From the NCBI GenBank assembly GCA_018242465.1, contig JAFEBY010000068.1:1-54198 (forward strand): a stretch of 54,198 bases of DNA, read 5' to 3'. The notes below the pieces were generated by a model. It saw nothing but the letters and a program-made list of their open reading frames with translations, ran no database searches and was not told where the DNA came from. Positions 4,776 to 49,240 of this stretch are shown in pieces. The position numbers and the translations under genes were made by a program. The first letter of the stretch is position 1. Each line of letters opens with the position of its first letter. Source of the DNA: Pseudomonadota bacterium. Its GTDB lineage: Bacteria; Pseudomonadota; Gammaproteobacteria; Xanthomonadales; Xanthomonadaceae.

Positions 4776-6985
<2,210 letters not shown>

Positions 6986-6999
<14 letters not shown>

Positions 7000-8065
7000 G
7001 GTCGTCCTGCGGCCACAGCAGCATCGCATCGCCATAGCTGAAGAAGCGATAGCGCTCGCGCACCGCGTGTTGGTAGGCAGCAAGGATGCGCTCGCGACCG
7101 GCGAGCGCACTGACCAGCATCAGCAGCGTGCTTTCCGGCAGATGGAAATTGGTGACCAGGCCATCGACGCTGCGCACCGGGATTCCGGGATATATGAAGA
7201 TGCTGGTCTCGCCGGAAAACGGCTGCAATCCATCCGGCGTCATGGCGGATTCCAGGGCGCGCAGCACCGTGGTGCCGACCGCGATCACGCGGCCACCGGC
7301 GGCACGCGTCGCCCGCACCGTGTCGACCAGCGCTTGCGACACGTCGATCCATTCCGAGTGCATGCGGTGGTCATCGAGATTCTCGACACGCACCGGCTGG
7401 AAGGTGCCGGCACCGACGTGCAAGGTCACGCGCGCATCATTGATGCCGCGATCGCGCAGGGCCTGCAACAAGGCTTCGTCGAAGTGCAGGCCGGCGGTCG
7501 GTGCTGCGACTGCGCCGACGCGTTCGGCGAACACGGTCTGGTAGCGCTCGGCATCGGCGGCATCGGGCGTGCGTTCGATGTAGGGCGGCAGCGGCAACTG
7601 GCCGACGCGCTGCAGCCAGTCGGTCAATTCGCCTTCCACATGGAAACGCAAGGTGAAGAAGCCACGATCGTCGCGATCGACCACTTCGGCGTTGCCGCCA
7701 CCGTCGAGTTCGATCAACGAACCCGGCTTCGGGGTCTTGCTCGCGCCGACCTGCGCCTTGGCGACGTCGTCGCCGAGCAGGCGTTCGATCAGGATCTCGA
7801 CGCGCCCACCCGTGGCCTTGTGCCCAAACAATCGCGCCGGAATCACGCGGGTGTCGTTGAACACCAGCAAATCGCCGGCACGCAGCAAGTCCGGCAGATC
7901 GCGGATGCCGCGATCGGCAAACGGCGCGTCTCCCGGCGGCACGACCAGCAGGCGGCTGGCGGAACGTTCGGCCAGCGGTTGCTGGGCGATCAGTTCGGGC
8001 GGCAGATCGTAGTGGAAGTCGGAGGTCTTCAAGTTGATAGCAATGCAGCGTGCTTGGACGCGCAT
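6986..8065 (-). CDS. queA: tRNA preQ1(34) S-adenosylmethionine ribosyltransferase-isomerase
   Basis: The 359-aa open frame encodes QueA, which transfers and isomerises the SAM ribosyl group onto preQ1-tRNA to give epoxyqueuosine. Recognisable blocks are [12 protein letters not shown] at the N-terminus, [28 protein letters not shown] and [10 protein letters not shown]. Homology begins at about residue 12, where a TTG at 8032 could be the true start; the ATG at 8065 is the only ATG upstream. It works one step after tgt, encoded 1 kb away on the same strand. Confidence 0.95.
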
Positions 8066-8558
8066 TTTCGCACGCGTCGACTTGACGGGTCATGGCACGC
8101 ACTGGTGGCGTGGGGTCATTCGCCAAAAGCATCGCCCGGCTCTGCGCCTTTAGCGGTTATCCGCAGTGACCGACACGCCGTGAATCCCCGCTACGCGGGT
8201 CCGGCCCCTCGCTTGCGCTCGGTGCGTTCGGGATCACCACGCGGCATGCCGCGTGAGCGGCGCTTCCTCACCCATGCCTCGTATGGTCGGCCACAGCGGA
8301 CGAACCGCACGGCGCCGCCGGTGGCGGGCTTTTCGCTCTTTCTCGAAAACCAAGCACACGCAGCGGAGTGAGTCCGAAGCACGCACGCTCCGCTTTTCGG
8401 AGGAGTGAAAGCCACAACACGCGCGCGGAAGTGGGTCGCTGCTCCGGTGCGCGGGCGTTGCGCCGCATGGATGCGGCGCACGAGCCTACATGGACGTATT
8501 CACGGCGTCCCGCGCAGCGGAGTGGCGACCCACGCCACCAGCGCGTGCCTTGACCACT
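8066..8558. other. 493-bp gene-free region between queA and the Lrp regulator
   Basis: No convincing gene is visible. Short open frames here are Arg/Pro/Ala-rich and look like translated repeat sequence. The region is dense in palindromes: a 16-nt perfect palindrome at 8239-8254 (ACGCGGCATGCCGCGT) and a 10-bp hairpin with 2-nt centre at 8459-8480. Most of it (8175-8508) is bounded by inverted repeats and is listed separately. Confidence 0.7.
8175..8508. repeat. candidate intergenic repeat element with terminal inverted repeats
   Basis: The left end reads ACGCCGTGAAT (8175-8185) and the right end is its exact reverse complement ATTCACGGCGT (8498-8508). The 334 bp between contain several hairpins, including 8239-8254 and 8459-8480. 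There is no open frame that could be a transposase. This is the architecture of a small non-autonomous mobile or structural repeat. No second copy is seen in the window. Confidence 0.5.
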
Positions 8559-9134: not shown

Positions 9135-10625
9135 ATGAGCCTGATCGACACCCTCGCCCTGCTTCGCTCGCACGGCGGCCAGCGCACCACCGGCCTCGAC
9201 GACACCACCATCCTCGACTTCGCCAAGCGCCACCCTGAACTCGGCGAAGCGATCGCCGCGGCGGCATCGGCCTATCTCGACATCAAGGCCGATTTCCCCG
9301 ACCTGCTCGAGCTCGAAGAGAACGCACAGATCGCACGCGTGCAAGCGGGCTTCCTCAACTTCTATGCCGCCGATGCCGTGAACCCGTACGTCGCGCTGGC
9401 CGCGCGCGGTCCGTGGATCGTCACGCTCAAGGGCGCGGTGCTGAACGACAGTGGCGGCTACGGCATGCTCGGCCTTGGCCACGCCCCGCAAGCCGTACTC
9501 GCCGCGATGGCCAAGCCGCAGGCGCTGGCCAACATCATGACGCCGAACGTCGCCCAGCTGCGTTTCGACATCGCGATGCGCAAGGAAATCGGGCAGACGC
9601 GCGGCGGCTGTCCCTACACCAGCTTCATGTGCCTCAACTCGGGTTCGGAATCGGTGTCGCTGGCATCGCGCATCGTCGACGCCAATGCCAAGACGATGAC
9701 CGATCCGGGCGCACGCCACGCCGGCAAGGAAATACACCGCATTGTGGTCAAGGGCAGTTTCCACGGCCGAACCGACAAGCCGGCGCTGTATTCCGACTCC
9801 TCGCGCAAGACGTATGTGCAATATCTCGCCAGCTATCGCGGCGAACACAGCGTCATCACCATCGAACCCTACGACGTGGCCGCGTTGAAGCAAGCCTATG
9901 CCGATGCGGAAAAGAACGGCTGGTTCATCGAAGCGGTCTATTTGGAACCGGTGATGGGCGAAGGCGATCCTGGTCGTTCGCTGCCGCGCGCGTTCTACGA
10001 CGCCGTGCGCACGCTGACCCGCGACCACGGCAGCCTGATGCTGATCGACTCGATCCAGGCCGGCCTGCGCGCCACCGGCTATCTGTCGATCGTCGACTAC
10101 CCCGGCTTCGAAGATGCCGACGCACCCGACATGGAAACCTATTCCAAGGCGCTCAACGCCGGCCAGTTCCCGCTGTCGGTGCTCGCCGCCGGCGAACGCG
10201 CGACCAACACCTACAAGCGCGGCCTCTACGGCAACACGATGACCGCGAATCCGCGCGCGCTCGATGTCGCCTGCGTGGTGTTGAACAGCCTGACGCCGGA
10301 ACTGCGCACCAATATCCGCGAACGCGGCAAGCAGGCGCAGGCCAAGCTCGAAGCGCTGAAGCAGGACACCGGCCTGATCACCAAGGTCCAGGGCACCGGG
10401 TTGCTGTTCTCCTGCGAACTCGCGCCGGGCTTCAAGGGCTACGGCACCGGATCGACAGAGGAATGGCTGCGCGAACGCGGCATCGGCGTGATCCACGGCG
10501 GCGCCAACTCGCTGCGCTTCACCCCGCGCTTCGCGATGCAGGAAGACGAACTCGACCTCATCGTCGCAATGGTCAAGCGTTCGTTGCTGGAAGGTCCGCG
10601 CGAGGCGCAGGACAAGGCAGCCTGA
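9135..10625 (+). CDS. class III (PLP-dependent) aminotransferase
   Basis: A 496-aa protein of the omega-amino-acid/lysine-type aminotransferase fold. The start at 9135 has GGGAG upstream. Supporting segments are [13 protein letters not shown] (PLP phosphate region), a SFHGRTD motif, [10 protein letters not shown], and [12 protein letters not shown] with the presumed Schiff-base Lys. The usual D-E-[IV]-Q-[TS]-G block reads [11 protein letters not shown], so the common Glu after the PLP-binding Asp is Ser. The gene is divergent from an Lrp-type regulator, suggesting induction by its amino-acid substrate, which cannot be named from sequence. Confidence 0.88.
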
Positions 10626-10649
10626 TTCGCCACCGCGATGATCTGAAGG

Positions 10650-10677
10650 AGCCGGCCACGCGCCGGCTTCTTTTTTT
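10650..10677 (+). terminator. rho-independent terminator after the aminotransferase
   Basis: AGCCGGC pairs with GCCGGCT across a short loop and is followed by TTC and seven T. It lies 24 nt after the aminotransferase stop and separates it from upp. Confidence 0.88.
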
Positions 10678-10723
10678 GGTGGGATCATGCAGACTCGTCG
10701 CATCGAATCCACGGCCAGACCCA

Positions 10724-11356
10724 ATGAAGATCGTCGAAGTCCGCCATCCGCTGGTGCAGCACAAGATCGGCCTGCTGCGTGACGCCGGACTCAGCACCAA
10801 GGGCTTTCGCGAACTGGTGACCGAACTCGGCACCCTGCTCGCCTACGAGGCGACGGCCGATCTCGAAACCGAGCCGTCAACGCAACCCGGATGGGCCGGC
10901 GACGTTCAGGTCCGGCGGATCGCCGGGGCCAAGATCACCGTGGTGCCGATCCTGCGCGCCGGCCTCGGCATGCTGCCGGGCGTGATGGCATTGATTCCCG
11001 CCGCAAAGGTCAGCGTGGTCGGCCTGCAACGCGACGAGGAAACCCTACAGCCGGTGTCCTACTTCGAACGCCTGACCGGCCGCCTCGACGAACGCGATGC
11101 ATTGATCCTCGATCCGATGCTGGCCACCGGCGGCACCCTGATCGCGACCATCGACATGCTCAAGCGTGCCGGCGCCAAACGCATCAAGGGCATCTTCCTG
11201 GTCGCCGCGCCGGAAGGATTGCGGGCACTGGAAGCCGCGCATCCCGACATGCAGGTCTATACCGCCGCGATCGACGAGCGCCTCAACGAACACGGCTACA
11301 TTCTGCCCGGCCTGGGCGATGCCGGTGACCGCATCTTCGGCACGCGCGTCAGCTGA
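10724..11356 (+). CDS. upp: uracil phosphoribosyltransferase
   Basis: A 210-aa salvage enzyme converting uracil and PRPP to UMP. The N-terminus [20 protein letters not shown] is typical. [13 protein letters not shown], the PRPP loop region [16 protein letters not shown] and the C-terminal [16 protein letters not shown] are all present. Length equals that of the family. It has its own transcription unit, since a terminator precedes it, and is convergent with the following MBL-fold gene. Confidence 0.97.
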
Positions 11357-11364
11357 TTCTTTGC

Positions 11365-12255
<891 letters not shown>

Positions 12256-12271
12256 GCGCTTAGCCTACTCC

Positions 12272-14806
<2,535 letters not shown>

Positions 14807-36040: not shown

Positions 36041-36110
36041 CCTGCAGAAGGCCAGCCCAATAGCCGACACGCGTCATGGGCATTTTTCTCGCGAAATAGC
36101 CGACTGGCGC

Positions 36111-36746
36111 TTACTCCGCCGCTTTGCGGTCATCGTCGTCAAAGACCACCTTTTCGGCCACCCCCATCCGACAGTGAGAAATCCTCATGGATGCGGCCGT
36201 CCAAGCTCGATCATTGCCCGCCTTGCTTTTGCTGAACAGCAGACTCGACACGGCATCCACTCCCAGGCTCTGGGCGTCTTGGAAGGCCCCCAAATCCGCG
36301 CTGAGGAATACGAAATCCCAGCCGATCGCCTTCTTGGCTTCGATCAATGCGGTCACCCGCGCCCGATCGAACTCCTGGCTGGCGTTCTCCTGCCCATCGG
36401 TCACAACCACAAAGATCACCTTTGTCGGCCGCTCCGATTCCGGGATAGCTGCCAGTTGCGCCTCCAGATCCAGGATGCCCCGACCCATGGCGTCATACAG
36501 GGGCGTCGAGGCCCGCGGCACGTAACGCTCCAACGTCAACGGTTGCACCGATCCAATCGGATCAACCGAATGCAGCACCTCATAGGGATCTTGGGAATCG
36601 AACTGAACAAGCGTGAAGGTGGCCGGATACGGGGCTGCCTGCTGCTGGGCGAGGAAGGCATTAAACCCGCCGACTACGTCCTCCCGAATGTCCTGCATGG
36701 ACCCCGTCCGGTCCAAGATCAGGGTGATGTGGCTGCGCTCGGTCAT
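36111..36746 (-). CDS. vWA domain protein of the accessory island
   Basis: A 211-aa single-domain von Willebrand A protein. The MIDAS residues are complete: DRTGSM (residues 11-16, ILDRTGSMQD), Thr in ASTPLYDAMG and Asp in VVVTDGQENA. Such cytosolic vWA proteins bind partners through Mg2+. The gene has a very strong ribosome site (AGGAGGA) and is divergent from the HEPN gene across 86 nt. It is the leftmost gene of the putative defence island. A role in it is inferred from neighbourhood only. Confidence 0.88.
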   Translation of the reverse strand: MTERSHITLILDRTGSMQDIREDVVGGFNAFLAQQQAAPYPATFTLVQFDSQDPYEVLHSVDPIGSVQPLTLERYVPRASTPLYDAMGRGILDLEAQLAAIPESERPTKVIFVVVTDGQENASQEFDRARVTALIEAKKAIGWDFVFLSADLGAFQDAQSLGVDAVSSLLFSKSKAGNDRAWTAASMRISHCRMGVAEKVVFDDDDRKAAE

Positions 36747-36832
36747 GGCATGCTCCTCCTTGTTGGATGTGGTTCAGAGGATGCTCCCGGCCCATCTCAC
36801 AAGCTGAGACAGGCATATCGAGAGGGGATGGG

Positions 36833-37486
36833 ATGACGGAAGCGGAGAAGTTGAAGGACAAGCATCGGCTGGTGCGCGACCGACAGCCGGAGGCCCTGCG
36901 GGTCCGGATCCATCGCGCCCTCAGTTGGTTGCAGAGGGCCGAGCAGGAAAAAGACGATGCAGATACCCGGTTTCTGTTTCTCTGGATCTCGCTCAACGCT
37001 GCCTACGCACAGGAGTTCGGTTTCGAACTCAGCGAGCGCGATCAGACCCGGCAGTTCATCCAGAAAGTACTAGCTCGCGACCAGGCGGGACGATTGCATG
37101 ATGCGGTCCACCGTCAGTTCACGGGTCCGATCAGGACCCTCATCGACAACAAATTCGTCTTCGAGCCGTTCTGGAAGGCGATGCGTGAGCACGACGCAAG
37201 CGACCACTGGGAAACGCAATTTTCTGCGGGAAAGAGGCTGGCGACGCGCGCCATCGTAGAGAAACAGACGGACGTCGTCCTTTCCGTTGTCCTTGATCGG
37301 CTTTACGTGCTGCGGAACCAGATCGTGCACGGCGGTGCCACATGGAACAGCGGCGCTAACCGTACCCAATTGAGGGACGGAGCCGCGATCCTGGCGACCA
37401 TCATGCCAGTCATCATCGACGTCATGATCGAGGACGTCACGGACGACTTCGAGGCCATCGCCTATCCGTTGGTTCCGGGGGGATGA
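36833..37486 (+). CDS. HEPN (Apea-like) domain protein, possible RNase
   Basis: A 217-aa all-helical protein. The C-terminal part carries the HEPN signature Rx4H as LRNQIVHGG (R161, N162, H166), followed by NRTQLRDGAAIL, the form of the Apea-like HEPN family. HEPN proteins with this motif act as RNases in toxin-antitoxin and abortive-infection systems. The start at 36833 has AGAGGGG upstream. It is the only clear plus-strand gene in the island and is convergent with the DUF499 gene. No antitoxin-type nucleotidyltransferase is adjacent. Confidence 0.85.
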   Translation: MTEAEKLKDKHRLVRDRQPEALRVRIHRALSWLQRAEQEKDDADTRFLFLWISLNAAYAQEFGFELSERDQTRQFIQKVLARDQAGRLHDAVHRQFTGPIRTLIDNKFVFEPFWKAMREHDASDHWETQFSAGKRLATRAIVEKQTDVVLSVVLDRLYVLRNQIVHGGATWNSGANRTQLRDGAAILATIMPVIIDVMIEDVTDDFEAIAYPLVPGG

Positions 37487-37622
37487 CCACCGATGCGTTG
37501 AACAAGGCGTGCAACTATTTCCAGTGTGCAATCGGCGATCTGGTCGAACACATTCTGGGCCCGATCCCCAATTGCAGTTTCAGCGGACTGAGCGAACGAG
37601 GCTTCAACGTAGCCCGTGAAAA
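37483..37622 (+). other. short open frame overlapping the HEPN stop (possible truncated gene)
   Basis: An ATG overlaps the HEPN stop as ATGA after a G-run (GGGGGG), and the frame reads about 46 codons (MTTDALNKACNYFQCAIGDL …) before running antisense into the end of the DUF499 gene, where it becomes a shadow. The 46 codons have ordinary protein-like composition. It may be the start of a gene lost by rearrangement, or chance. Confidence 0.25.
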
Positions 37623-40412
37623 TCACTCGAAATCCGCCGACGAAATCCCCAGCACACGGCTGTTCTCCTTCGCCGCGCGCACGGTGGTCTCATCGAACCC
37701 GCGGCCATCGCTGGCCTCGATGTCCACTTTGATCACCACGCTGGTGCCGTGGCGAGCGCTGAACAGCTCGACCAGCTCCTTCATGATATTGGCGAACTTC
37801 AACGAGGCGCCGACCGGATCCAGTTCTGCCGATGCCCAGAAGTGCGTCGGCATCGTTGCGGTTGGCCCTGGCGGTGGCGGCGGAACCGGGTTCGGATTGG
37901 GATCAGGGTCGGGGTTCGGGCCTGGATCGGGCGGCAGAGCAGGCGGAGGCGGCCGCGTCGCCTCTTCGTACGCTGCAGACTTCGCGGGCTCGATGAGCAG
38001 CGCCACGTCCATGAAGGGTGATGTCGCTTCGCCGTAGGTGAAGCCTAGATAGCGGTCCTCGTCCTTGCCACTGGCCAGACCGAAGAAATCACGGCTTGAC
38101 GCACCGGCGGCGATGGCATGCGCCATCACGTCCGAGTTGCGCAGTCGCGGCAGGTAGAGGTAGCTGCAGGACTTCTGCCACACATCCAGCGCCTTCACGT
38201 CCACGTTGCCGTCCTTCCAGAACCACGCCTTGAGCAGGTAGTGGAGGTTGACCGGCGCCCACTGGCTGATCACCCATTCGTTGTCGGCCAGCACGCGGTC
38301 AACTTCCTTGCCCAGACCCACCGATGCCGGGTTCAGCGCCTGCGCTTCCCACTCGATCTCGCCCACCGTGCCGTCCTTGCGACTGACCGCCTGGGTGGGT
38401 GCGACCAGCCACTTGTAGGTGTCGCGCACTAGGCGCAGCACGGTGTCTCGGGTCTGCTCCTTGTTCTGGCTGACCTGCTTGGCCTGGATGTTGTCCAGCA
38501 GGATCCGGGTCTCTTTGAGATCGGTCTCGATGCTGCGCCAGGCCAGCAGCGCACGCACAGTCTCCTTCAAGTGGCTGACCTGATCGGCATCGGCCGCCAG
38601 GAACAGCAGGCGGTTTTGCTTGACCCGTGGTTGCCCGCCACGATCCTTCAGGATCGCCGCGGCTGCATCGCGTGCCGGGTTCGGACCAGCCCCGCGAGTC
38701 CAGCCCGTATTCGGCGACAGCACTACCAAGCGAAGCTCGAAGTCATCCGGCACGTCTGCGGCAGGCGTGAACACATGGTGGTTGGCGATTGAACCGCCGC
38801 CCAACACCTTGCGGAGCACATCGGCGACCTCGTCGAACACTGCAGGATCCTGGAAGCGCCGCTTGCGGTCTTCCATCTCACGCCGCAGGTTCGGCTTCAC
38901 ATCCAGCCACCAGCGGTTGTTGCCCTCGTTGAGGAAGGTCAGCCGCGTCTTCAAGCGCGACAGCGCGTCCTTGAACACGTGCGGCGCCTGGCCCGGCTGG
39001 ACGCAGCTCAGGATCAGCCGCTCGGTTTCCACGCCACGCGCCATCTCGTTGCCGGACACCGGGGCGCTGCCCAGGAAGATGCTGCGGGTGATCCGGCGAC
39101 AGGCCTGCACCGATCCGAACTTGGCCTCCTGGGTTTCCAGCAGTGCGGGTTCGCTGCGCTCGCCATCCACGTCGCGGGACAACACGGGATCCCAGCCCAC
39201 CGGCAGGTTGCTGGTCAACTCGGCGCTTACTTCCGCGTCGTACAGCGGCAGGCTGCCCGGCAGGATCAGCAGGTCCTTGTTGTCGCTCTGCCACAGGCGG
39301 TGGATCACGCGCGCCATCAGTTTCAGTACGCCGCGCGTGCGCTGGAAGTTCGGCAATGCCGACCAGTCCTGGTAGAGCCGCTCGAACACTTCCGGATGGA
39401 TCGGATACGCCGACCGCAGACGGTCGTAGTACCGCCCCTCCTGTGCCTCGCCAGGCAGGTCATCTTTGTGCTTCACATACCAGTCGGCGAATGCGCGGCA
39501 GACGGTGTCGCGCGTGTCCTGGTCGCGGATCTCGGTAAACAAGCGGCGGCGCACGATCTCGAACGACTCTTCGGTGCTCACCGGCTTCCAGATCGCCTGC
39601 ACGCGGGAGAAGTAGTGTTCAAGCGCATGCAACGCGGCCACGCCGCGTTCGCTTCCGGCCTCGCGCTCGCTCTCCGGCAGCGAGGCCAGCAGCACTGCCT
39701 GCGGTGCCGCCTTCAAGGCCTCGGTCAGCGCTTGGATAAACGTGAGGTTGGCATCGTAGGTGCCGCCGGACAGCGACTTGCCGTCCTCGAACTGGCGGAT
39801 ATACGCCACCAGCTCGTCGATCAGGATTACGCAGGGCCCGGCCTTGCGGATCAGGTCGGCGAGCAGGTCCTTGCCTGGGTTGGTGCCAGTGGCATCGGCG
39901 TCGGCCAGTGCCGCATAGGCCTCAGCGCCGCCGAGTTGCCAGGCCAGCTCGCCCCACAGTGTGCGCAAGGTATGGCCATCCACACGACGCGGCTGGCTGG
40001 GCGACAGCTTCACGCCGTCCAGCACCACCACCTTGGCGGTGGGCAGGTCGAGGATACCGGCAGCATCAAGCAGCTTCGGAATGCCCGCGAGGTCGCTCTT
40101 GGCGGCCTTACCGCCGACCATGTGCATGACCGCGAGCATGGTGTGGGTCTTGCCGCCACCGAAGGCGGTCTGCAACTGGATGACCGGATCGCCGCCCTTA
40201 CCGGCAAGGCGCTTTGCCACGGACGTCAGCAGCGCGCCCATGCCCTCGGTGATGAAGGTTCGCTGGAAGAAAAGCACCGGGTCCTGGTATTCCGGCGTAG
40301 CGGATCCGTCATGGACGCGGGTGATGTCGGCCGCGAACTCGGCACGGACGAAGGTGCCCCGATGGACATCCTCGTGCGGGATGGCGACTTCGCGCCAGGG
40401 TTTCATGGTCAT
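37623..40412 (-). CDS. DUF499 family ATPase (anti-phage-associated)
   Basis: A 929-aa AAA-type ATPase. Walker A is FGGGKTH (G85-T89) and Walker B VILIDE ends at residue 200. The N-terminus ([10 protein letters not shown] … [14 protein letters not shown]) is typical of DUF499. Near residues 835-865 is a Pro/Asp/Asn linker with DPNP repeats, followed by a small conserved C-terminal domain. DUF499 proteins occur with DUF1156 methyltransferases, DUF3780 and helicases in predicted phage-defence loci and resemble BREX ATPases in size and role. It starts 10 nt after the DUF3780-like stop; a second ATG at 40406 is possible. Confidence 0.9.
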
Positions 40413-40422
40413 GGCTCGTTCT

Positions 40423-41010
40423 CTACATCATGGGTGCGGGCATGGCGGGCATCCTGACCGGCGGATCGTCGTCTTCGTCATCGTCGTACTTGCCGAAGAA
40501 GCTCGAAATCTCGAACCAGTACTCACCCACGTAGTGCACAGTTGCTTCGTCTCGACGACGGAAATGGTCTTCCCGATCGAAATCGGGCGACCGAATGCCC
40601 TGTGGTCCTTCCCACTCGGCTTTCAGTGCTTCCCATACTTCCAATGGGAGCGCCGTGATGTCGAACTCCATCACGTCGTACTTCTTGCCGTCCTCGCCAC
40701 CTCTCAGGCTCTGCTTCTTCAGCTTGATCTGAGTGCCCGCATGCTGCTTCCCTTCGGGACGGCAGCCGATCAGCTCTTCATACATGCGAAGCCTGGCGAA
40801 AATGTGCTCGACCTCGACGCCGTTGAACGGGCGGAAGTTGGCTGCGGCCGGGTGCGACTTGTCGATCACCACGGCGTCGGCCTCGGAATAGCCCCAGCCC
40901 CCACGGATGGGCAGCGCGGGCTGCGACTTGTACTTGCGGGAGAGGAACACCTGTGGCTCCCACTTCTCGAAATACGGCGTGATGTTCTCGACCTCGATCT
41001 CAACGGCCAT
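40423..41010 (-). CDS. DUF3780-like protein of the defence module
   Basis: A 195-aa protein with no catalytic motif I can see. I place it tentatively with DUF3780, the small partner of DUF499/DUF1156 systems, from its position between those genes, its size and the [14 protein letters not shown] and [16 protein letters not shown] segments. An acidic patch DDDEDDD and a Met/Pro-rich tail end the protein. The start at 41010 lies 2 nt after the cyclotransferase stop, so translation is coupled. Confidence 0.72.
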
Positions 41011-41012
41011 TC

Positions 41013-41573
41013 CTATCCCCCTGTGGTCAACACTGCGCGTCGCTGGACCTCGTCCAGTACGCCCGTCATTCCTGCTTCCGCCAACGCTGCCAACGCCTCC
41101 AGGCGCGTCGCCCTCTCTTCCTTGCCATCGACGTCGAAGGCCGTGGCTTCCAGCGCCTGGACGTACGCGACAGGCAATCCGCCTTGTCGCGCACCAGCGA
41201 TGATCAGCGCCAGATACCAGTCGTAAGGCACCTTCGATGGATCCCGCCTGTGCGGTTCCGCCATGTATGCCCATGCCGTCTCGAGGCCAGATGACGTGGA
41301 CACGACAACCGCTCGCGCCATGTAGTGCCCGCCCTCGTGCTTATCGAGATCAGCCTTCTGGTCTCCATCGAACTCGTACAGCACTCCCAGGACCTCGCTC
41401 CCAGGACTCGACACCATGTCGCCCTTGCCGGAGCCATCCACGCTGACCTTGGCGAAGTCAAGCCGGTAGTCGCGCACGACACCCACCGCCGCGGCTTTCG
41501 CAGTGGACACGCGCGCGACGAGACGCTCGCGCAGCATGTTGGAGCCGTAGGCGAAGTAGCGGAGCGTGGCCAT
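41013..41573 (-). CDS. gamma-glutamylcyclotransferase (GGCT/AIG2) family protein
   Basis: A 186-aa protein. YFAYGSNML at residues 6-14 is the GGCT signature, and E in LDKHEGGHYMARAV fits the catalytic acid. Family enzymes cyclise gamma-glutamyl amines or peptides to release pyroglutamate. It is unusual in the middle of a methyltransferase-ATPase operon. Its ATG (41573) overlaps the stop of the frame-corrected methyltransferase as TGATG, and its stop lies 2 nt before the next start. It is therefore clearly a member of this transcript. Confidence 0.87.
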   Translation of the reverse strand: MATLRYFAYGSNMLRERLVARVSTAKAAAVGVVRDYRLDFAKVSVDGSGKGDMVSSPGSEVLGVLYEFDGDQKADLDKHEGGHYMARAVVVSTSSGLETAWAYMAEPHRRDPSKVPYDWYLALIIAGARQGGLPVAYVQALEATAFDVDGKEERATRLEALAALAEAGMTGVLDEVQRRAVLTTGG

Positions 41574-44493
41574 CAAACGTCGAAGCTCCCCTGTACGTTG
41601 ATATGACCCGCATCGTGGCTGGCCGCCTCGATGGCGTGCCACGCGGTGATCAGTTCGTTGTAGGCGCGGGCTTCTTCCGGCAGCTTCTTGCGCTCGGCGC
41701 AGGCGTTGTAGAGCCAGTAGGCCAGGCGGCGGATGTCACCGGACTTCTCCGGCATGCGTGCCAGCAACATGCCGGCAATGCTCTCACCGCCTGCGTTGTA
41801 GGCGCGGATCAGTTGGTGCAGCGCTTCCCAGACGGGGTGCGGTTGTCGGACTGCGGGTCCCAGTCCGCCGGGTACTCGTCCGGCTTCAACAGGCGCACCT
41901 TGCCGCCATCGGACGCCAGCACGCCGGCATTCTTCACCGCGTCCACGCTGGTGGCTTTGGCACGGGCCAGCACGTCGGCGTTGCCGAAGGCGCCGGTGCC
42001 GAAGCCGACCTCGTCGAACCAGCCCAGGCAGAAGTTGGTGTCGGCGTCGAAGGTCTCGCCGCCCAGCACTTCGTCCACCTGGCGGTTGATCAGCATCAGC
42101 GCGGTCTTCACGCTCATCGGCTCGCCGTTGCTTTCCAGCACGGCGGCGTACTGCGAGAACACGCCCATGCCGGGACCGATGGCGGCCTGGGCCAGGTCCA
42201 CCGGCGCGATGGGCGATGCGCCATCGGCGCCGCCGAGCATGGCGTCCAGCGCGTCACCCAACACTTCCTTCAACTCACGCTGGAACTCGCGGCGCGGTAT
42301 CTGCGGAGCATCGTCCCCGCGACGGCGGCAGACCAGGATGATGCTGGATGCCAGCGCATTGGTGCCGCTGCCGATCATGCGATTGCCCAACTCGGTACGC
42401 ATGGGCCAGGTGCCGTGTATGGCAAATCCAGCACTGATCACGGCCGCAATGAATGTCTCCCATCCAGTTGAGGCAGTTCCATCGTTTCCGGTATCGGACT
42501 GCTTGAAGGCGTAATAGATCGAGACCGGGAACGCGCCATGCGCCTTGTCGGCGATGTTGTGCATCGCCGCCGTCATGCCGTCCAGGAAAAACTTCTCCGC
42601 ACCTTCCTTGCCGCCGTGGCGATACGGTGTTGCGACCAGCTCCTCGGCCTTGGGTACGGCAACGGTTGCGAACAACGATGGGAAGGTGCCACGCAGCGTG
42701 CGGCGCAACCACACGTAGAAGAAGTCCGAAAGATCGGCATAGCCGATGTTGTCGTAGTAAGGCGGATCCGTTGAGACAACGCGTCCATCCAACGCCGCCC
42801 CAGCAGCATTCTTCTGCTGCGCCTCTCCGGTCGGCCAACCCGGCTTGGTTCCTACGGACAAGAGGTTGTCAGCGGTGTACTTCACCGCATTCAACCAGCA
42901 GATCGCCTTCTCTCCCATGACGTTGGACTCTGGGAAGTCCCAGGTCATGGGGATCGCCTGGCGCTTGTAGGTCTGCATGACCTGCTCGCCTGACGGTTTC
43001 CAGGTAGCGATCGAGCTGTTGTAGTCGTTCAATCGACTGATGGCGAATGACAGGTAGGTAGCAACTGCTTCCGCATACGCCGTCGCGCCAGTGCCACCGG
43101 CATCCAGCTCGCGGCCGTCGTCGGCCATGCCGCTGTTCACCGCGTCGGCGCGGATCTTCTCCCGCGCTTCGCCCACCAGATCGGAGAAGGTGTTCAGCGC
43201 GACGAGCTGGCGCGGGGTGAACAGGTCGCCGAACGTATCCATGCCGTAGTTCGGCGTCTTGAAATCGCGCGTGTTGTCCGGCAGCGGCGTGTTCGGCTTC
43301 CATTCCGGCTTGGCACTTTCCGCCAGCGCCTGCATCGCCTCGTCGGGCGAAAGATAGACACGGCCGCGCTGACCTTCCGCCACCACGGCCATCAGTCGCT
43401 GCCCCATGCGCCCGGCCTTGCCCTCACTGCGGATGTGGTCGTAGGACACCGCGACATCGGACATCAGGCAGATGAAAGCCGCGCGCTTGCCTGCCGTGGT
43501 GCCGCCCTTGGCACTGGCCGGCGGCTTGCGCGTGCCATCGGCCACCTTGACCTCGAACCGATAACTGCTGCCTTCCACCACCGGCTCCACCCAGGCTTCC
43601 TTGCCGGCCTTGGTGGACAGCAGGAAGGTGGAGGCCAGCGGCACCTGCACGCTGGAATACGCCGGGTTGGGGCTGCGCACGGTGCGCGCCCACAGCCAGG
43701 CGATGACGGTCAGCTTCTGGCCGACGTAGGGCTTCAGGTCCGACCGGGTCTTGGCCATCTCCGCGGTGATCTCCACCGGCGGATACAGATGGCCGATGCG
43801 CTTCTGTGCTTCTTCGCGCATCCAGTGGCCATAGCGGCGCACGTCTTCGGCCAGGCCGCGCGCGCCGGACCAGTCCTCGGCCATCTTCGTCTGCTTCTCG
43901 CCGGCCGGCACCGGCCCCACCGGCTTGCGACCGGCGAACTTCGGCGGGATCTCGATCATCGCCTTGTTGATCAGCACCGCCACGGGGTTGAGGTCGCTGG
44001 CATGGCTTTCCAGCCCCAGCCGCTGCGCTTCCAGCGGAATGGCACCACCGCCCGCGAATGGATCATGGAAGGCGGGAAGTTTTTCCGGGTTGAACAGCTC
44101 GGCCGCCTGCGGATGCTTCTTGTTGAGCTCGCAGGTCTCGGCCCAGCTCTTGCGGATCTCCGCCCGCGCCCGTTCCAGGACTTCCTCGTTGTTGGTGTTC
44201 TCCCACTTCACCAGCTCGCGGATGATGTCGAACAGGCGCTCGCGCTCGCGCGTGGCTTCCTTCTTGTTCGAGCCCCGCCTGAAGCCCTGACCTTGTTGCA
44301 ACCCGGGGTCATTCACCATCTGCGCGAACAGCACCGCCCGCGCCGCCGCCAGCGGGCGCCGCGCCCACCACAGATGCAGGCCACGCGGATGCGCGCCAAT
44401 GCCCGGCTGCTTCTCTGCCGCCGCAGCGATGTTGATGTCGTCCAGAGGCAGCGCGACTTCGATGAGTTTCCTGGGGGTCTTGATGGGATGCAT
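41573..44493 (-). CDS. DUF1156 DNA (adenine-N6-type) methyltransferase with apparent frameshift
   Basis: About 973 aa if one base is restored. The DUF1156 N-terminus ([37 protein letters not shown]), SAM motif [14 protein letters not shown] (D144) and catalytic [10 protein letters not shown] (D576) are intact. The main frame ends at 41809 with an odd tail ([10 protein letters not shown]). Adding one C in the C4 run at 41834-41837 (minus strand) instead gives [18 protein letters not shown] and continues 65 further in-frame residues from 41770 to a stop at 41573 that overlaps the next ATG. It may be a real mutation, phase variation or a sequencing error. It probably marks host DNA for the system. 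Confidence 0.88.
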
Positions 44494-44504
44494 GGGGTAC
44501 GGTT

Positions 44505-45125
44505 TCAGTTCCAGGAGGCCGGGCGAGTGAGGACGAAGCCGTCCGGCTTGGTGATGGTGGCGGGCAGCTGGCTGTCCTGCAGCTTCTTGCGGCCGATGGT
44601 GAAGCACGCATTGGCCGCGGCAGCGAGCTTGGCGGAATGGCGTGCCGGCGGACTGGCGATGATGATCCGCTTGGCCGGGAAACGAGCGCGCACGGCTTCC
44701 ACCGGCGGCACCAGGTCGCTGTCGGCAGAGACGATCATCGCCGTGTCGAAGGCATCGTCCATGGCGTCGGACAGCAGGCGCACGGCGATGTTCACGTCGG
44801 TCATCTTCTCCTCGGCCTGCTGCCACTGCGCCCCGCACGCGCGGCACTGCTTGGGCTTGCTCAAGTAGTGGCCGTAGATCGCCTCGACGCCAGCCAGGGT
44901 CTCCACGGCTTCTAGATAGGTCTGCTGGCGCAGGTGCTTGTCAGGGTCACCGGGACTGGGGCTGATGCGGGCGCTGAAATACCGGACGCCCGCCAGGGTC
45001 TGCCACGGCTTCATCAGGTTCTGGATCAGCAACTCCGGGCTCAGCCAGTAGTAGCGGCGCAGGCCACTGTCGCGCAGACCGAAGAACAGGTTGAAGCCAT
45101 CGATGTAGCCCACTACCCTGTTCAT
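44505..45125 (-). CDS. NYN domain (PIN-like) nuclease
   Basis: A 206-aa NYN/LabA-type protein. The acidic active-site positions are [10 protein letters not shown] (D9), DVNIAV and SADSDLVP, the typical NYN triad of a Mg2+-dependent RNase fold. A single CRACG pair could be half a zinc site. It is encoded between the helicase and the methyltransferase, 11 nt before the latter, so it belongs to the module rather than being a bystander. The usual role of NYN proteins is RNA processing or cleavage; its target here is unknown. Confidence 0.88.
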
Positions 45126-45180
45126 GTTCTGGCATCCCTGCCTGTTGACAGGCCGTCAAGCCTTGACAACAATGCGCCTA

Positions 45181-45330
45181 CCCCGTCGGGGATAGCATCC
45201 CCGGCCCGACGCCCCGCAAGGGGCGTTTCTCTTTTGTGGCCTCGCAGACCATGAAAGACAGCCCCGCCGGAGATAGCATCTCCGGCCCGACGCCCGCCTC
45301 GCGCGGGCGTCTCTGTTTCTGGCGCAGCAC
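45181..45330. repeat. two tandem copies of a double-hairpin element
   Basis: Copy 1 begins at 45181 and copy 2 at 45262 (period 81). Each has hairpin A, an 8-bp stem with AGC loop (CGGGGAT/ATCCCCG; CCGGAGAT/ATCTCCGG), the shared GGCCCGAC, then hairpin B (ACGCCCC-GCAA-GGGGCGT; GACGCCCGC-CTCGC-GCGGGCGTC) and a pyrimidine tail (TTTCTCTTTT; TCTCTGTTTCT). Stems differ in sequence but stay paired, so the RNA or DNA structure seems selected. On plus, hairpin B with its tail resembles a terminator, although flanking genes are on minus. Confidence 0.7.
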
Positions 45331-45348
45331 GCCGTACCGCCGCAAGGC

Positions 45349-48300
45349 TCATGCGGCACCTCCGTGGCGCGTGGCGCGGGCCAGCAGCTCGGCCAGTTCC
45401 AGGTTCTTGCTGACCTCGGCCCAGTCCGGCGCCTGTGTGACGGGTCCTTGCAGGTAGTACGGGCCTTCAGTGCTGTCGTCCTCGTTGACCAGGACGACGG
45501 CCAGCCAGAACTGATCGGGCTTGTTGAGCGCAGCGATGATCTCGTTCTTGGTCAGGGTGATGGTGGTTGCACCCTTCGCACGCCCCTTCACCTCGATCAG
45601 GCGGTCGTCCGGCAGCGTGGCGCCGGTCGGCGGGACTGCCGAGGTGATGTCCCAGCCACACTTCTCCGCCGACACATCACGTGGGCTGAACCCCATCGCA
45701 CGCTCTGCTGCGGCAACAGCTTCCATGGCCAGCAGTTCGATGCGCGAACGCGCGAGCGGATCGATGCTGTGCGTCGCTGGTGTGGCGGCAGGCTGGCCCG
45801 CCTGGAACCAGCCAGTTGGCACGACCAGCGCACCACCCACGATCTTGGGCGTGGCCGGCACGATATGGCGCTGGGCTTCCAGCTCCTGAAGGCGCGCAGA
45901 TCGCCGCGCGGTCAGCTCCTCGGCCCGTCGGATCAGGTTGTCCGGCTGGACCCTGGGCTGCTTGCCGGCTCGCACTTCCTCCTGCAGCGCGATGGCGCGA
46001 TGGGAGAGGAAGTTGATTTCACGGGTCAGCCGCTCATGCACCGCCTGGCTGACCCGATCAATATGCCGCAAGCGACGCTCGCGCACGCCGGACAAGTGCT
46101 TGGGCACCAGTTGTCCGCCCGCCCATTCCAACGCACGCTGTTCCAACCCCTGGTCGAGCCATGCTGCGTCGAGCAGTGGCTTGATCTGGCCAGCTTCTAC
46201 CTCAGTAGCCGGACGCAGATCCAGGTGCGGTGCCCAGCCCGCGAAGGTGGCTTCGCCATTCGGCGCGATCCGCAGGAACTGGACCTCGCGCGAGATCGTG
46301 CGCTCGGACTCGCCCGTTCCCTCGCGCACCTCGTGATCCACCATCAGCAACAGGTGCGGCTCGGTGCCCATGTCGGTCGGATCGACCAGCACGCTGCCCT
46401 GCTTCAACGCGGGCAGACGTGCTTCCAAGGTCATGTCGATGACAGCGCCCATTAGCGGATGCGCCGGATGGATCAGGTCGGCCATTGGCTTGTTGAGCAG
46501 GCGGATGTCGCCCTTCTCGAAGCACACACGCGCGTACTTCGGCAGTACCGGCTGGCGGGTCTGGCCGATGCGGCGGTCGCGCTCGCGGATCGCCGCTGGC
46601 ACATGCGGCAGCTCGTAGCGCCCTTTCTCACGCAGGCGGGCGTCGCCGCCCAGCTGTTCGAAGGCTTGCAGGAAGAAGGCGCGGATGAAGTGCGGCTGCA
46701 GCTTGCGTGCCTCGGCCTTGTCCATCTCTTCCTTGATGGCATGCAGCGCGTCCAGGCCCATCTGGTTGTCCACCAGCGCGTTGCGGCGGAAGATCTCCTT
46801 CAGCTTCTCGGAGTCCAAGCTGTTGTCGATGACCTTGAACAGGTCGCGCTGGACGTCTTCGCGCTCACCGTAGCGGATCGCCTCCCACAGCAGATCTTTG
46901 AGCGGCTTGCCGGTGAAGGCTTCACCGAGTACGTCGAACACTCGGCCGCCCAGCGCCTGACGTTCGATCTCGATCTTCTCGAACAGGCGCTGGAACACGG
47001 CGCCCTCGCGTGTCTTGTCGGCCACCAGGTTCCACAGGTGGCAGATCTCGCGCTGGCCAATGCGATGGATGCGACCGAAGCGCTGTTCCAGCCGGTTCGG
47101 GTTCCAGGGCAAGTCGTAGTTGACCATCAGGTTGGCGTTCTGCAGGTTCACCCCCTCGCCTGCCGCGTCGGTGGCCAGCAGGACCTGAACGTCCTTGTTC
47201 TGGCGGAACTCCTCCTGCACACGTCGCCGCTCGTCGCGGTTGGTGCCGCCGTGGATCTGGACGACGGCCTCCCGCCTGCCAAGCAGCCCGACGATCTTTG
47301 TGGCCAGATAGGCCAGCGTGTCGCGGTGTTCGGTGAAGATGATGATCTTGCGGCGGTTGCCGTTCGCATCGAACATCAACTCGCTGTCCTGCAGGATCTG
47401 CGACAGTTCCCGCCACTTCTGATCGTTGCCGCTGTCGTACAGCGCGCGGGCTTCTGCTTCCAGCGAGCGCAGGGTCAAGAGTTCGGCCTCCATCTCGGCG
47501 ATGGTGTCCGCGGTGCTGGCCTGCTCCACCGCCTGGTCGGCAACGTTCTCGAAATCCTCCGGGGACAGCTCGTCCTCGGCCTCGTCCAGGTCGTCCGGGA
47601 CGTCGATCGCCACTCGCTTGCCGTAGGTAGAGCGATCCTCACCGACCCGATTGCCGCGGGCGATGAGCTTGGCCTCTTCCAGGCGCTCTTCCAACCGTTT
47701 GCGACGGCGCAACAGCGACTGGTAGATGGCGGCGGGGCTGGAGGCGAGGCGGCGTTGCAGCATGGTCAGTGCGAAACCCACGCTGTTGCGCTGCTTGCCG
47801 TCCAGTTGCTCTGCCCGGTTCCACTCGTTGCGCACGTAGTCCGAGACATGCGCGTACAGCGCTTCCTCGGCCGGTGACAGATCGTAGTTGGCGGTGTAGG
47901 CCAGACGCGGCGGGAACAGCTTGGTGCCGTCGAACTTGAGCAGCTCCTCCTTCACCAGGCGGCGCATCAGGTCGGACACGTCCACACGCGTGGCGCCCTC
48001 GCGGAACTTGCCGTAGAAACGGTCGCCATCCAGCAACGCCATGAACAGCTGGAAGTCCTCTTCCTTGCCGTTGTGCGGCGTCGCCGTCATCAGCAGGAAG
48101 TGACGGGAGATCGAGCCGAGCAGCTCGGCCAGTTCGTAGCGCTGGGTCTTCTTGACCTCACCGCCAGAGAAGCTGGCGGCGCACTTGTGGGCCTCGTCAA
48201 TGATGACCAGGTCCCAGTGCGACGCACGCAGCTTCTCCTTCAAGTCGTCGTTGCGTGCCAGCTGGTCCAGCCGCGCGATCATGCGGTCGGCCTGGGTGAA

Positions 48301-48882
48301 GGCGTTGCCGTTGGCGGACAGCTCCTGCTGCTCACGACTGAACAGGGTGAACTCCAGACCGAACTTGTCGCGTAGTTCGTCCTGCCACTGACCGGACAAC
48401 GAGCCCGGCGACACCACCAGGATGCGCTGTGCGTCGGAGCGCATGATCAGCTCGCGGATCAGCAGGCCGGCCATGATGGTCTTGCCGGCGCCGGGGTCGT
48501 CGGCCAGGACGAACCGGAGCGGCTGGCGCGGCAGCATGGCCTCGTACACCGCCGAGATCTGGTGCGGCAGCGGCTCCACGTCCGAGGTGTGGACGGCCAT
48601 CATCGGGTCGAACAGATGGGCGAAGCGGATGCGCAACGCCTCGGCAGCCAGCTGGAAGGCTTCGCCGTCCGCGGCGAAGGACCAGGGGCGGGTTGCGGTG
48701 GCCTCGGCCAGGGACGCTTCGTCGTCCCGAAACAGCATCCGCTCGCCGATGACCCCAGCCGGGGAGCGGTAGACCAGAGTAATGGCGTCCGGGCCACCGG
48801 GGGCAGCGGCCACGACTTCCACGGGACCTGCGGGATCCACCCCGACCAGTCTCTGCCCCCTGGTGATGTCCTCGATTTTCAA
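45349..48882 (-). CDS. SNF2/DEAH helicase with C-terminal DUF3883-like domain
   Basis: A 1177-aa helicase. Motif I is DDPGAGKT (G131-T135), motif II IIDEAH (229-232), motif III TATPHNGK, and motif VI lies in QRFGRIHRIGQ after ATDAAGEGVNLQ. This matches SNF2-like helicases of DISARM and related systems. The C-terminal ~90 residues (DRLIEVKGRAKG … LTKNEIIAALN) form a DUF3883-type nuclease-like domain with the I-E-V-K-G core. The start is TTG at 48882 with GGGGGCG upstream. It heads the defence transcript and is followed by the double-hairpin element. Confidence 0.9.
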   Translation of the reverse strand: MKIEDITRGQRLVGVDPAGPVEVVAAAPGGPDAITLVYRSPAGVIGERMLFRDDEASLAEATATRPWSFAADGEAFQLAAEALRIRFAHLFDPMMAVHTSDVEPLPHQISAVYEAMLPRQPLRFVLADDPGAGKTIMAGLLIRELIMRSDAQRILVVSPGSLSGQWQDELRDKFGLEFTLFSREQQELSANGNAFTQADRMIARLDQLARNDDLKEKLRASHWDLVIIDEAHKCAASFSGGEVKKTQRYELAELLGSISRHFLLMTATPHNGKEEDFQLFMALLDGDRFYGKFREGATRVDVSDLMRRLVKEELLKFDGTKLFPPRLAYTANYDLSPAEEALYAHVSDYVRNEWNRAEQLDGKQRNSVGFALTMLQRRLASSPAAIYQSLLRRRKRLEERLEEAKLIARGNRVGEDRSTYGKRVAIDVPDDLDEAEDELSPEDFENVADQAVEQASTADTIAEMEAELLTLRSLEAEARALYDSGNDQKWRELSQILQDSELMFDANGNRRKIIIFTEHRDTLAYLATKIVGLLGRREAVVQIHGGTNRDERRRVQEEFRQNKDVQVLLATDAAGEGVNLQNANLMVNYDLPWNPNRLEQRFGRIHRIGQREICHLWNLVADKTREGAVFQRLFEKIEIERQALGGRVFDVLGEAFTGKPLKDLLWEAIRYGEREDVQRDLFKVIDNSLDSEKLKEIFRRNALVDNQMGLDALHAIKEEMDKAEARKLQPHFIRAFFLQAFEQLGGDARLREKGRYELPHVPAAIRERDRRIGQTRQPVLPKYARVCFEKGDIRLLNKPMADLIHPAHPLMGAVIDMTLEARLPALKQGSVLVDPTDMGTEPHLLLMVDHEVREGTGESERTISREVQFLRIAPNGEATFAGWAPHLDLRPATEVEAGQIKPLLDAAWLDQGLEQRALEWAGGQLVPKHLSGVRERRLRHIDRVSQAVHERLTREINFLSHRAIALQEEVRAGKQPRVQPDNLIRRAEELTARRSARLQELEAQRHIVPATPKIVGGALVVPTGWFQAGQPAATPATHSIDPLARSRIELLAMEAVAAAERAMGFSPRDVSAEKCGWDITSAVPPTGATLPDDRLIEVKGRAKGATTITLTKNEIIAALNKPDQFWLAVVLVNEDDSTEGPYYLQGPVTQAPDWAEVSKNLELAELLARATRHGGAA

Positions 48883-49117
48883 TCAATCGCCCCCACATCG
48901 ATAACAGATGATGTCTTCTATTGTCGCGTTGCAACTACGGCTTCAACGTTGAGTTGTACCAATCGACCATATTGGCATCGCCGACCACGCCACCTTCAAT
49001 TATCGGTGCCCGCGTAAGCGCGCGACCTCAAATCTACATGACCTCCTTCTCAAAAACTGACACGGACGTGGGAGGACATCGCACGGATTCGGCCTGGAGC
49101 CCAGCCGCCCGAACAGC
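48883..49117. promoter_or_regulatory. upstream region of the helicase gene
   Basis: 235 bp without a gene, lower in GC than its surroundings. On minus, TTGAAG and CAATAG with a 17-bp spacer could be a weak promoter for the defence transcript. No integrase fragment or repeat of the tRNA end is seen. Confidence 0.35.
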
Positions 49118-49150
49118 AAAAAGGGCCAATGAGCGAGAACTCATTGACCC
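49118..49150 (-). terminator. terminator after tRNA-Arg
   Basis: On minus, GGGTCAATGAG pairs with CTCATTGGCCC (one mismatch) around TTCTCG and is followed by TTTTT. It lies 13 nt past the tRNA CCA end and insulates the tRNA from the helicase gene downstream. Confidence 0.88.
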
Positions 49151-49163
49151 CAATGTTTTTAGA

Positions 49164-49240
49164 TGGCGCGCCCGGAGCGATTCGAACGCCCGACCCCCAA
49201 GTTCGTAGCCTGGTGCTCTATCCAACTGAGCTACGGGCGC
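49164..49240 (-). tRNA. tRNA-Arg (ACG)
   Basis: A 77-nt cloverleaf on minus. The acceptor GCGCCCG pairs with CGGGCGC, the D arm is GCTC/GAGC, the anticodon stem CCAGG/CTTGG (one G·T) encloses CTACGAA with anticodon ACG, and the T loop is TTCGAAT. CCA is encoded. Its 3' end faces the defence island. Its first 10 nt overlap the stop of the upstream membrane-protein gene. Confidence 0.97.

Follow-up and report, generated by a model that had tools for sequence, protein, structure and literature searches.

The locus described here has close relatives that already carry names. In the Hma system (PADLOC; PMC8565338) the genes follow each other in the order HmaA-HmaB-HmaC, and Type-1 BREX-related (BR) loci, according to their description (Rakesh & Krishnan 2026, PMC12839542), comprise a DUF499 ATPase, a DUF1156 N6-methylase and a SNF2 helicase with a C-terminal PD-(D/E)XK-type domain, with auxiliary nucleases in the locus. 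Type-2 BR loci, i.e. the anti-phage DUF499-DUF3780-DUF1156-PLD loci, use the same ATPase and methylase families. The stretch of DNA analysed here, 54,198 nucleotides (nt) from a bacterium of the Xanthomonadaceae (GenBank GCA_018242465.1, contig JAFEBY010000068.1) and referred to as the window, contains eight genes that a sequence-only reading had taken for a single defence module with BREX/DISARM-like logic. Listing of open reading frames (ORFs) and translation recovered all eight (table 1) and bore out the arrangement given by that reading, i.e. six closely spaced minus-strand genes in the order HmaA, NYN, HmaB, GGCT, X195 and HmaC (helicase-NYN-DUF1156-GGCT-(fifth gene)-DUF499 in the earlier wording) and, beyond HmaC, a divergent pair consisting of a vWA gene (minus) and a HEPN-like gene (plus). 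We are confident that the window carries an Hma defence system in an island at a tRNA-Arg gene, with two variable slots for exchangeable cargo. An unnamed 'extended module' is now placed in a named defence family; overall, the system is known and its combination of genes is new, with partly new cargo and with a linked two-hairpin element that is most worth following. The NOV_C domain on the helicase, a frame break in HmaB, the island borders and both copies of this element had been missed before.

The Hma core and its closest described relatives

The PADLOC models for HmaA, HmaB and HmaC were each matched at E=0 in a scan with hidden Markov models (HMMs), those for HmaA (residues 1-1172) and HmaC over their full length. 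Pfam finds DUF1156 in HmaB (E=1.8e-26) and DUF499 in HmaC (E=2e-31), where the same scan detected no fused HEPN domain, as well as helicase domains in HmaA, whose N-terminal region, the place of a Tudor domain in Type-1 BR helicases, gave no Pfam match and whose C-terminal NOV_C domain, which we take to be a PD-(D/E)XK-like domain, includes an IEVKGR motif. DPFAGG, DPPY, GAGKT and DEAH motifs are also present in the core proteins, and DPPY presumably fits an assignment of HmaB as an N6-methylase. HmaB is called an N6-methylase in PMC12839542 and an m5C methylase in PMC8565338. The former also reports a C-terminal PD-(D/E)XK nuclease on the helicase in 79% of Type-1 taxa and cites another study for anti-phage activity of the helicase; its main text has 0 occurrences of NYN or cyclotransferase. 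Judged by sequence, the core is the already known Hma or Type-1 BR system, from whose PADLOC form the window differs by two genes without a PADLOC match, GGCT and X195, and by the broken frame of HmaB.

Membership of the Type-2 BR group was rejected: unlike those loci, the window has neither DUF3780 nor a PLD-helicase, and an N-terminal HKD (PLD) nuclease is not among the Pfam matches of HmaA. The NCBIfam models for antiphage DUF499 (199 of 1200 bits) and antiphage DUF1156 (108 of 1000 bits) stayed far under their cut-offs, and the PLD-helicase model reached 181 of 1100 bits on HmaA. DISARM was rejected as well, with DrmD far under its cut-off (373.8 bits, i.e. 374 of 610) and with the DrmA/DrmD models falling on HmaA, for which the HmaA model is the better fit. 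PglZ, the marker of BREX and Type-3 BR, had no match among the island proteins scanned. What stands of the BREX/DISARM-like logic proposed earlier is a locus of methylase, ATPase and helicase with RNase genes added; the system itself is actually named Hma or Type-1 BR.

Most likely, the core is a DNA defence of the restriction-modification type. If it operates along the lines of the model in PMC12839542, HmaB would mark self DNA with N6-methyladenine, the AAA+ ATPase HmaC would scan and license, and HmaA would move on unmarked DNA, which would be cut by the PD-(D/E)XK-type (NOV_C) domain at the C terminus of HmaA. The slots between HmaA and HmaB (A-B) and between HmaB and HmaC (B-C) hold exchangeable cargo, often nucleases. 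In the window, GGCT and the orphan protein X195 fill the B-C slot as rare cargo, and the NYN RNase behind the two-hairpin element could be a back-up effector that cleaves RNA under a regulatory leader of its own, a role for which we see about even chances. The sequences themselves show the gene content, the homologies, the insertion, the variation of the slots and the link between element and NYN; the biochemical steps and the parts played by the cargo are predictions.

Table 1. Features of the island and its border in the window (positions in nt; strand relative to the window).
Feature	Position	Strand	Evidence
Genomic island, 13.1 kb	~36043..49162	.	only 61-72 nt between the flanks in congeners G302, G312, G313
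vWA-domain gene, probably passenger	36111..36746	-	PHROG 7371 E=2.6e-51; 0/36 other Hma loci; 215 phage records
HEPN-like gene, R-x4-H motif, probably passenger	36833..37486 (likely)	+	plasmid relatives; 0/36 other Hma loci
HmaC, DUF499 AAA+ ATPase	37623..40412	-	PADLOC HmaC E=0, full length; Pfam DUF499
X195, 195-aa orphan-family protein	40423..41010	-	not DUF3780 by sequence
GGCT, gamma-glutamyl cyclotransferase-like	41013..41573	-	Pfam AIG2_2 E=5.5e-14, GGACT E=1.5e-10; human GGCT E=5.2e-15
HmaB, DUF1156 adenine methylase (predicted), frame broken near 3' end	41809..44493	-	PADLOC HmaB E=0
NYN RNase-fold gene, HEC-09	44505..45125	-	PADLOC HEC-09 E=1.2e-91; Pfam NYN
Two-hairpin element, copy 2, NYN-proximal	45177..45238	-	repeat and fold
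Two-hairpin element, copy 1, HmaA-proximal	45258..45322	-	repeat and fold
HmaA, SNF2-type helicase with C-terminal NOV_C (predicted nuclease) domain	45349..48882	-	PADLOC HmaA E=0; NOV_C E=1.4e-19
tRNA-Arg(acg), island border	49164..49240	-	tRNA call; congener flanks

The tRNA-Arg island and its cargo slots

In three congeners the DNA left and right of the island is joined almost directly (table 1), and in G304 the flanks are joined by ~150 nt, with a less complete match on the left. Since the flanks are joined in congeners, a single insertion, flush with the 3' end of tRNA-Arg, either brought in all eight genes or is the place where they accumulated. The flank search covered 17 genomes of the genus, our own included, 11 of which gave no adjacent pair of flanks and hence are uninformative. 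The tRNA-Arg site may be an insertion hotspot. No att copy was seen elsewhere in the window, where stretches of 12-30 nt from the 3' end of tRNA-Arg do not recur exactly and 15-mers are not shared, and no integrase stood out among the island proteins scanned, with no search aimed at integrases having been made. The same site in G305 (L201) holds another insert of ~3.4 kb without a match to the eight island genes. HmaB itself was found at E<=1e-100 in five of 60 relatives, our own genome included, two of which (G000 and G303) belong to the 17 of the genus.

Joint presence of the eight genes in one island is supported by these data; their membership of one system is not. The earlier reading had proposed counting how often NYN, GGCT, HEPN and vWA genes accompany the core elsewhere. 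Because HmaA is too unspecific as a survey query (matches in 296 of 299 genomes), HmaB was used instead, and 36 further Hma loci (33 genomes or records) were searched, in the extent retrieved, for matches to the eight window proteins at E<=1e-3. These include two distant loci, L139 and L140, whose HmaB is ~30% identical; left out of the count were L043, which has only an HmaA-like gene, the fragments G053:C177, G526:C82 and G769:C98, and the distant HmaA-like loci of G041, G073 and G153:C222. NYN occurred in five of the 36 (L036, L037, L042, L085 and L113), GGCT and X195 in one each, in both cases L057, and HEPN and vWA in none, where zeros apply to the stretches read, as the loci differ in their flanks and some end at contig ends. 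The additional genes are mostly missing from other Hma loci, and it has become very unlikely that all eight belong to one extended system with an effector arm based on RNA targeting and small molecules. Such a system would account for their presence in a single insertion, for the close spacing of the six minus-strand genes and for the proximity of HEPN and an X195 relative in two loci that lack Hma; it does not sit well with the counts just given, with the L057 genome, in which the HEPN protein has no match, with five plasmid regions viewed around HEPN genes, none of which has Hma genes, or with the abundance of vWA relatives in phages.

The closest relative, L057 (metagenome-assembled genome WH4.bin29), is 93% identical in HmaA (residues 417-1177), 85% in HmaB, 77% in GGCT, 96% in X195 and 92% in HmaC, yet instead of NYN its A-B slot has genes for an ATPase and an HNH-like protein, which by eye resemble Septu, and its B-C slot contains further genes, GmrSD included. 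Measured as the distance between matched ends, and with the window, L042 and L134 left out, the A-B slot is practically empty (15-48 nt) in six loci (L033, L035, L105, L109, L111 and L115) and wider than 1 kb in others. Its cargo, as identified by HMM among the part of the slot ORFs that was scanned, includes Septu genes (PtuA and PtuB in L049 and L104, PtuB in L136), families whose label HEC presumably stands for 'Hma-embedded candidate' (HEC-07 in L108, HEC-08 in L034, HEC-09 in L037), an AAA ATPase with DUF3226 (L039) and a weak, sub-cut-off sacsin match (L040); cargo of the B-C slot was PIN (L036), HEC-06/GmrSD (L048) or the GmrSD of L057. As the slots differ between loci, the core resembles a chassis that, in this sample, takes up facultative, exchangeable cargo at two slots. 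This picture agrees with the nucleases described as auxiliary in PMC12839542 and with the connection to Septu in PMC8565338.

Several observations weigh against an Hma system with exchangeable cargo as we describe it. GGCT and X195 are known from only one further Hma locus, which is a close relative; HEPN might be tied to X195, as it lies within ~1.1 kb of an X195 relative in L061 and L063, a proximity that is the only hint tying HEPN or vWA to another island gene; the two-hairpin element is also found without NYN or Hma; and the frame break removes ~90 C-terminal model positions from HmaB. The long HmaB frame corresponds to model positions 2-883, with the remainder (876-966 of 967) in another frame at 41579-41854, and comparison with L057 gives a 1-nt gap around the break. 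With a source genome that is a draft of 139 contigs, 87% complete, this break could be an assembly error, and the activity of the window copy is uncertain. It is possible, if doubtful, that the island copy is decaying and has lost its modification-restriction function with the truncation of HmaB. Such decay would fit the loss of the C-terminal positions as well as the fragmented HmaB genes of L034, L050, L085 and L113; however, the draft may be in error here, all other large frames are open, and most of HmaB, including both methylase motifs, precedes the break. In L085 (Thermus oshimai plasmid, 9629-13435), an IS4-family transposase is annotated between the HmaB pieces, and the helicase gene is full length. 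Along HmaB, nucleotide identity to L057 is 0.55-0.69 in three middle windows of the comparison and 0.77-0.98 in the remaining ones past the start, a drop as might be expected from a change of the target-recognition part.

The NYN gene and its two-hairpin element

The RNase-fold identity that had been proposed for the NYN gene holds (Pfam NYN, E=5.6e-10), its novelty does not, since residues 1-206 match positions 1-203 of the 203 of the catalogued family HEC-09. The term 'HEC' is absent from PMC8565338, and HEC-09 appears in PMC12447246 among systems correlated with phage susceptibility in Pseudomonas. Comparison with PDB by sequence gave nothing useful, and in a literature search on Hma and NYN the latter was absent among the matches listed.

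What sets the window apart from the HEC-09 entry of PADLOC, with its same full-length NYN protein, is the element upstream, which has no match in Rfam 15. It is ~65 nt long with two potential hairpins and is present in two copies, 81 nt from start to start, between HmaA and NYN; L042 has three copies. A covariance model built from 12 copies was run on 44 sources, namely the window, 36 Hma loci and 7 others, and below E=0.1 returned these 12 only; all 12 sit in the A-B region of the window and eight Hma loci. Of the cells in the two-hairpin structure 88.5% pair, and in 4 pairs both sides change (28.6-51.6% and 0-1 for slid partners); the fit is flattered by the structure having been drawn from the same sequences. 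RNAalifold favours another outer stem, and the L036 copy folds no better than its shuffles. As to its position, the element is upstream of NYN in all six NYN-bearing Hma loci, window included, versus three of 31 without NYN (L041, L057 and L095); the corresponding Fisher values (p=3.6e-5, or 2.2e-4 among the 28 loci with a readable slot or NYN end) are not true probabilities, given that the loci share ancestry and are in part incomplete.

A survey of 269 genomes of the phylum, our own included, found the element in six, in four of them in an Hma slot (G000, G002, G097 and G125). In G089 it lies ~64 nt upstream of a NYN gene without Hma, on a 9.5-kb contig that has just one other match, the over-long HmaB frame overlapping NYN, and in G255 it lies away from both NYN and Hma. 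Seven of 15 genomes picked mostly for holding Hma have it, with a weak extra copy away from Hma in G125, as do one phage record and eight viral contigs (two pairs apparently near-identical), the latter without matches to window proteins in the stretches examined. Listed sites besides the window copies include L216:6788-6860 and L152-L160. Two Streptomyces plasmids with distant NYN genes show weak matches ~130 nt (E=0.00036) and ~100 nt (E=0.028, opposite strand) upstream, and no match was found upstream of the distant NYN genes of L086, L087 and L218. The E. coli genomes gave no match either, nor did a literature text search with two 15-nt words of the element. The element linked to an RNase gene looks new. 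On the opposite strand, by direct reading, it resembles an intrinsic terminator, so that a plain terminator is possible.

In type III toxin-antitoxin systems a toxic RNase is held by an upstream repeat RNA. The window is similar in having a structured repeat just upstream of an RNase-like gene; it differs by the NYN fold and by the element also occurring alone, and the likeness is one of arrangement. Element and NYN may, with rather less than even chances, be a stand-alone selfish or toxin-antitoxin-like cassette for which the Hma slot is a landing site, with NYN then not being a back-up effector of Hma. This would explain why both occur together without Hma in G089, why NYN relatives are found alone on small plasmids and why L057, the closest Hma relative, has no NYN, yet a Thermus locus with an HmaA only 48% identical has one at 54%. 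On the other hand, the element is found without NYN in L041, L057, L095, G255 and phage contigs, the distant NYN genes of L086 and L087 have no model match, and toxin and antitoxin roles are purely putative. A more specific version is unlikely: HEC-09 NYN would be under the control of a cognate two-hairpin RNA (or single-stranded DNA), both forming a mobile two-part cassette in the A-B slot, with the RNase freed when a phage disables Hma and with phages using the same element as a decoy. For NYN as Hma cargo, the element provides a testable clue to the way in which an RNase carried as cargo might be silenced, and since phage contigs have it too, a connection with counter-defence by phages is possible.

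In L042 (G002:C143, 1789-4351), the 3' end of HmaA is tandemly repeated, and the two repeats enclose element copies, NYN and a small gene pair, as if the cargo had brought a replacement HmaA end. A distant NYN relative, ~33% identical, is one of the two annotated genes on a 3.5-kb E. coli plasmid (L087), and similar small plasmids top the NYN match list after its first rows.

GGCT, X195 and the divergent pair

The identity of the GGCT enzyme, as read earlier, is confirmed by Pfam and by the alignment to human GGCT, with YGSN at 32 and HEG at 102, which we take to include the characteristic YGSN and catalytic Glu residues of gamma-glutamyl cyclotransferases. GGCT might use gamma-glutamyl peptides as substrates or else have a sensing role; the term was absent among the matches listed in a literature search combining it with anti-phage and BREX. 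Together with X195 it is an added, rare cargo pair without a PADLOC match, and these two cargo genes look new.

X195 had been described as 'DUF3780-like', an assignment that was abandoned in favour of an orphan family. It has no Pfam match even at E<=10, against 3.1e-75 and 3.1e-73 for annotated DUF3780 proteins from two loci on plasmid records used as positive control, and profile comparison with these two DUF3780 sequences gave a probability of 0.1%. (PF12635 had no match in 150 genomes of the phylum, nor in 14 control genomes, hence this search is uninformative.) That X195 is nevertheless a far-diverged DUF3780, making the locus a Type-2 BR, is hardly to be expected: similar size, a place between the DUF1156 and DUF499 genes and a predicted five-helix alpha+beta fold not unlike the DUF3780 description in PMC12839542 would fit, whereas the missing sequence match does not, and the helicase carries NOV_C, with no HKD domain reported there. 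The AlphaFold model of X195 is a confident alpha+beta fold (pLDDT 88, pTM 0.79). Profile comparison found no solved structural relative (best E=0.041, designed proteins), and no PDB fold matched at E<=0.001 (best 0.18). The family is present at 23 loci in genome contigs and, among 398 genomes of the phylum, in two besides our own, one of which (G160) seems to share its contig with L058; no relatives turned up in plasmids, phages or viral contigs. Its neighbours in other loci, read by eye, are diverse.

HEPN and vWA are probably passengers of the island. For both, the earlier domain assignments were corroborated. The HEPN protein has no Pfam match above the cut-off (best E=0.16) and nothing useful by sequence in PDB, but its R-x4-H RNase motif is kept in 8/8 aligned relatives, and many relatives on plasmids (25 records) are annotated 'HEPN domain-containing'; neighbours in the five plasmid regions viewed are WYL, DUF3883, TM0106 nuclease, HipA, dynamin or transfer genes. 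The vWA protein reaches only E=0.02 with Pfam VWA_4 and is identified by its PHROG 7371 match and by relatives annotated vWA, which occur in 25 plasmid records in addition to the phage records. Likely gene starts are 44493 for HmaB (11 nt past the NYN stop), 41573 for GGCT and 36833 for HEPN, whose open frame begins at 36767. Two loci that lack Hma, L061 (Dyella; 6051-8480) and L063 (3249-5303), have relatives of HEPN and X195 on opposite strands with ~0.9-1.1 kb between them, and in both a metallophosphatase-like gene is nearby.

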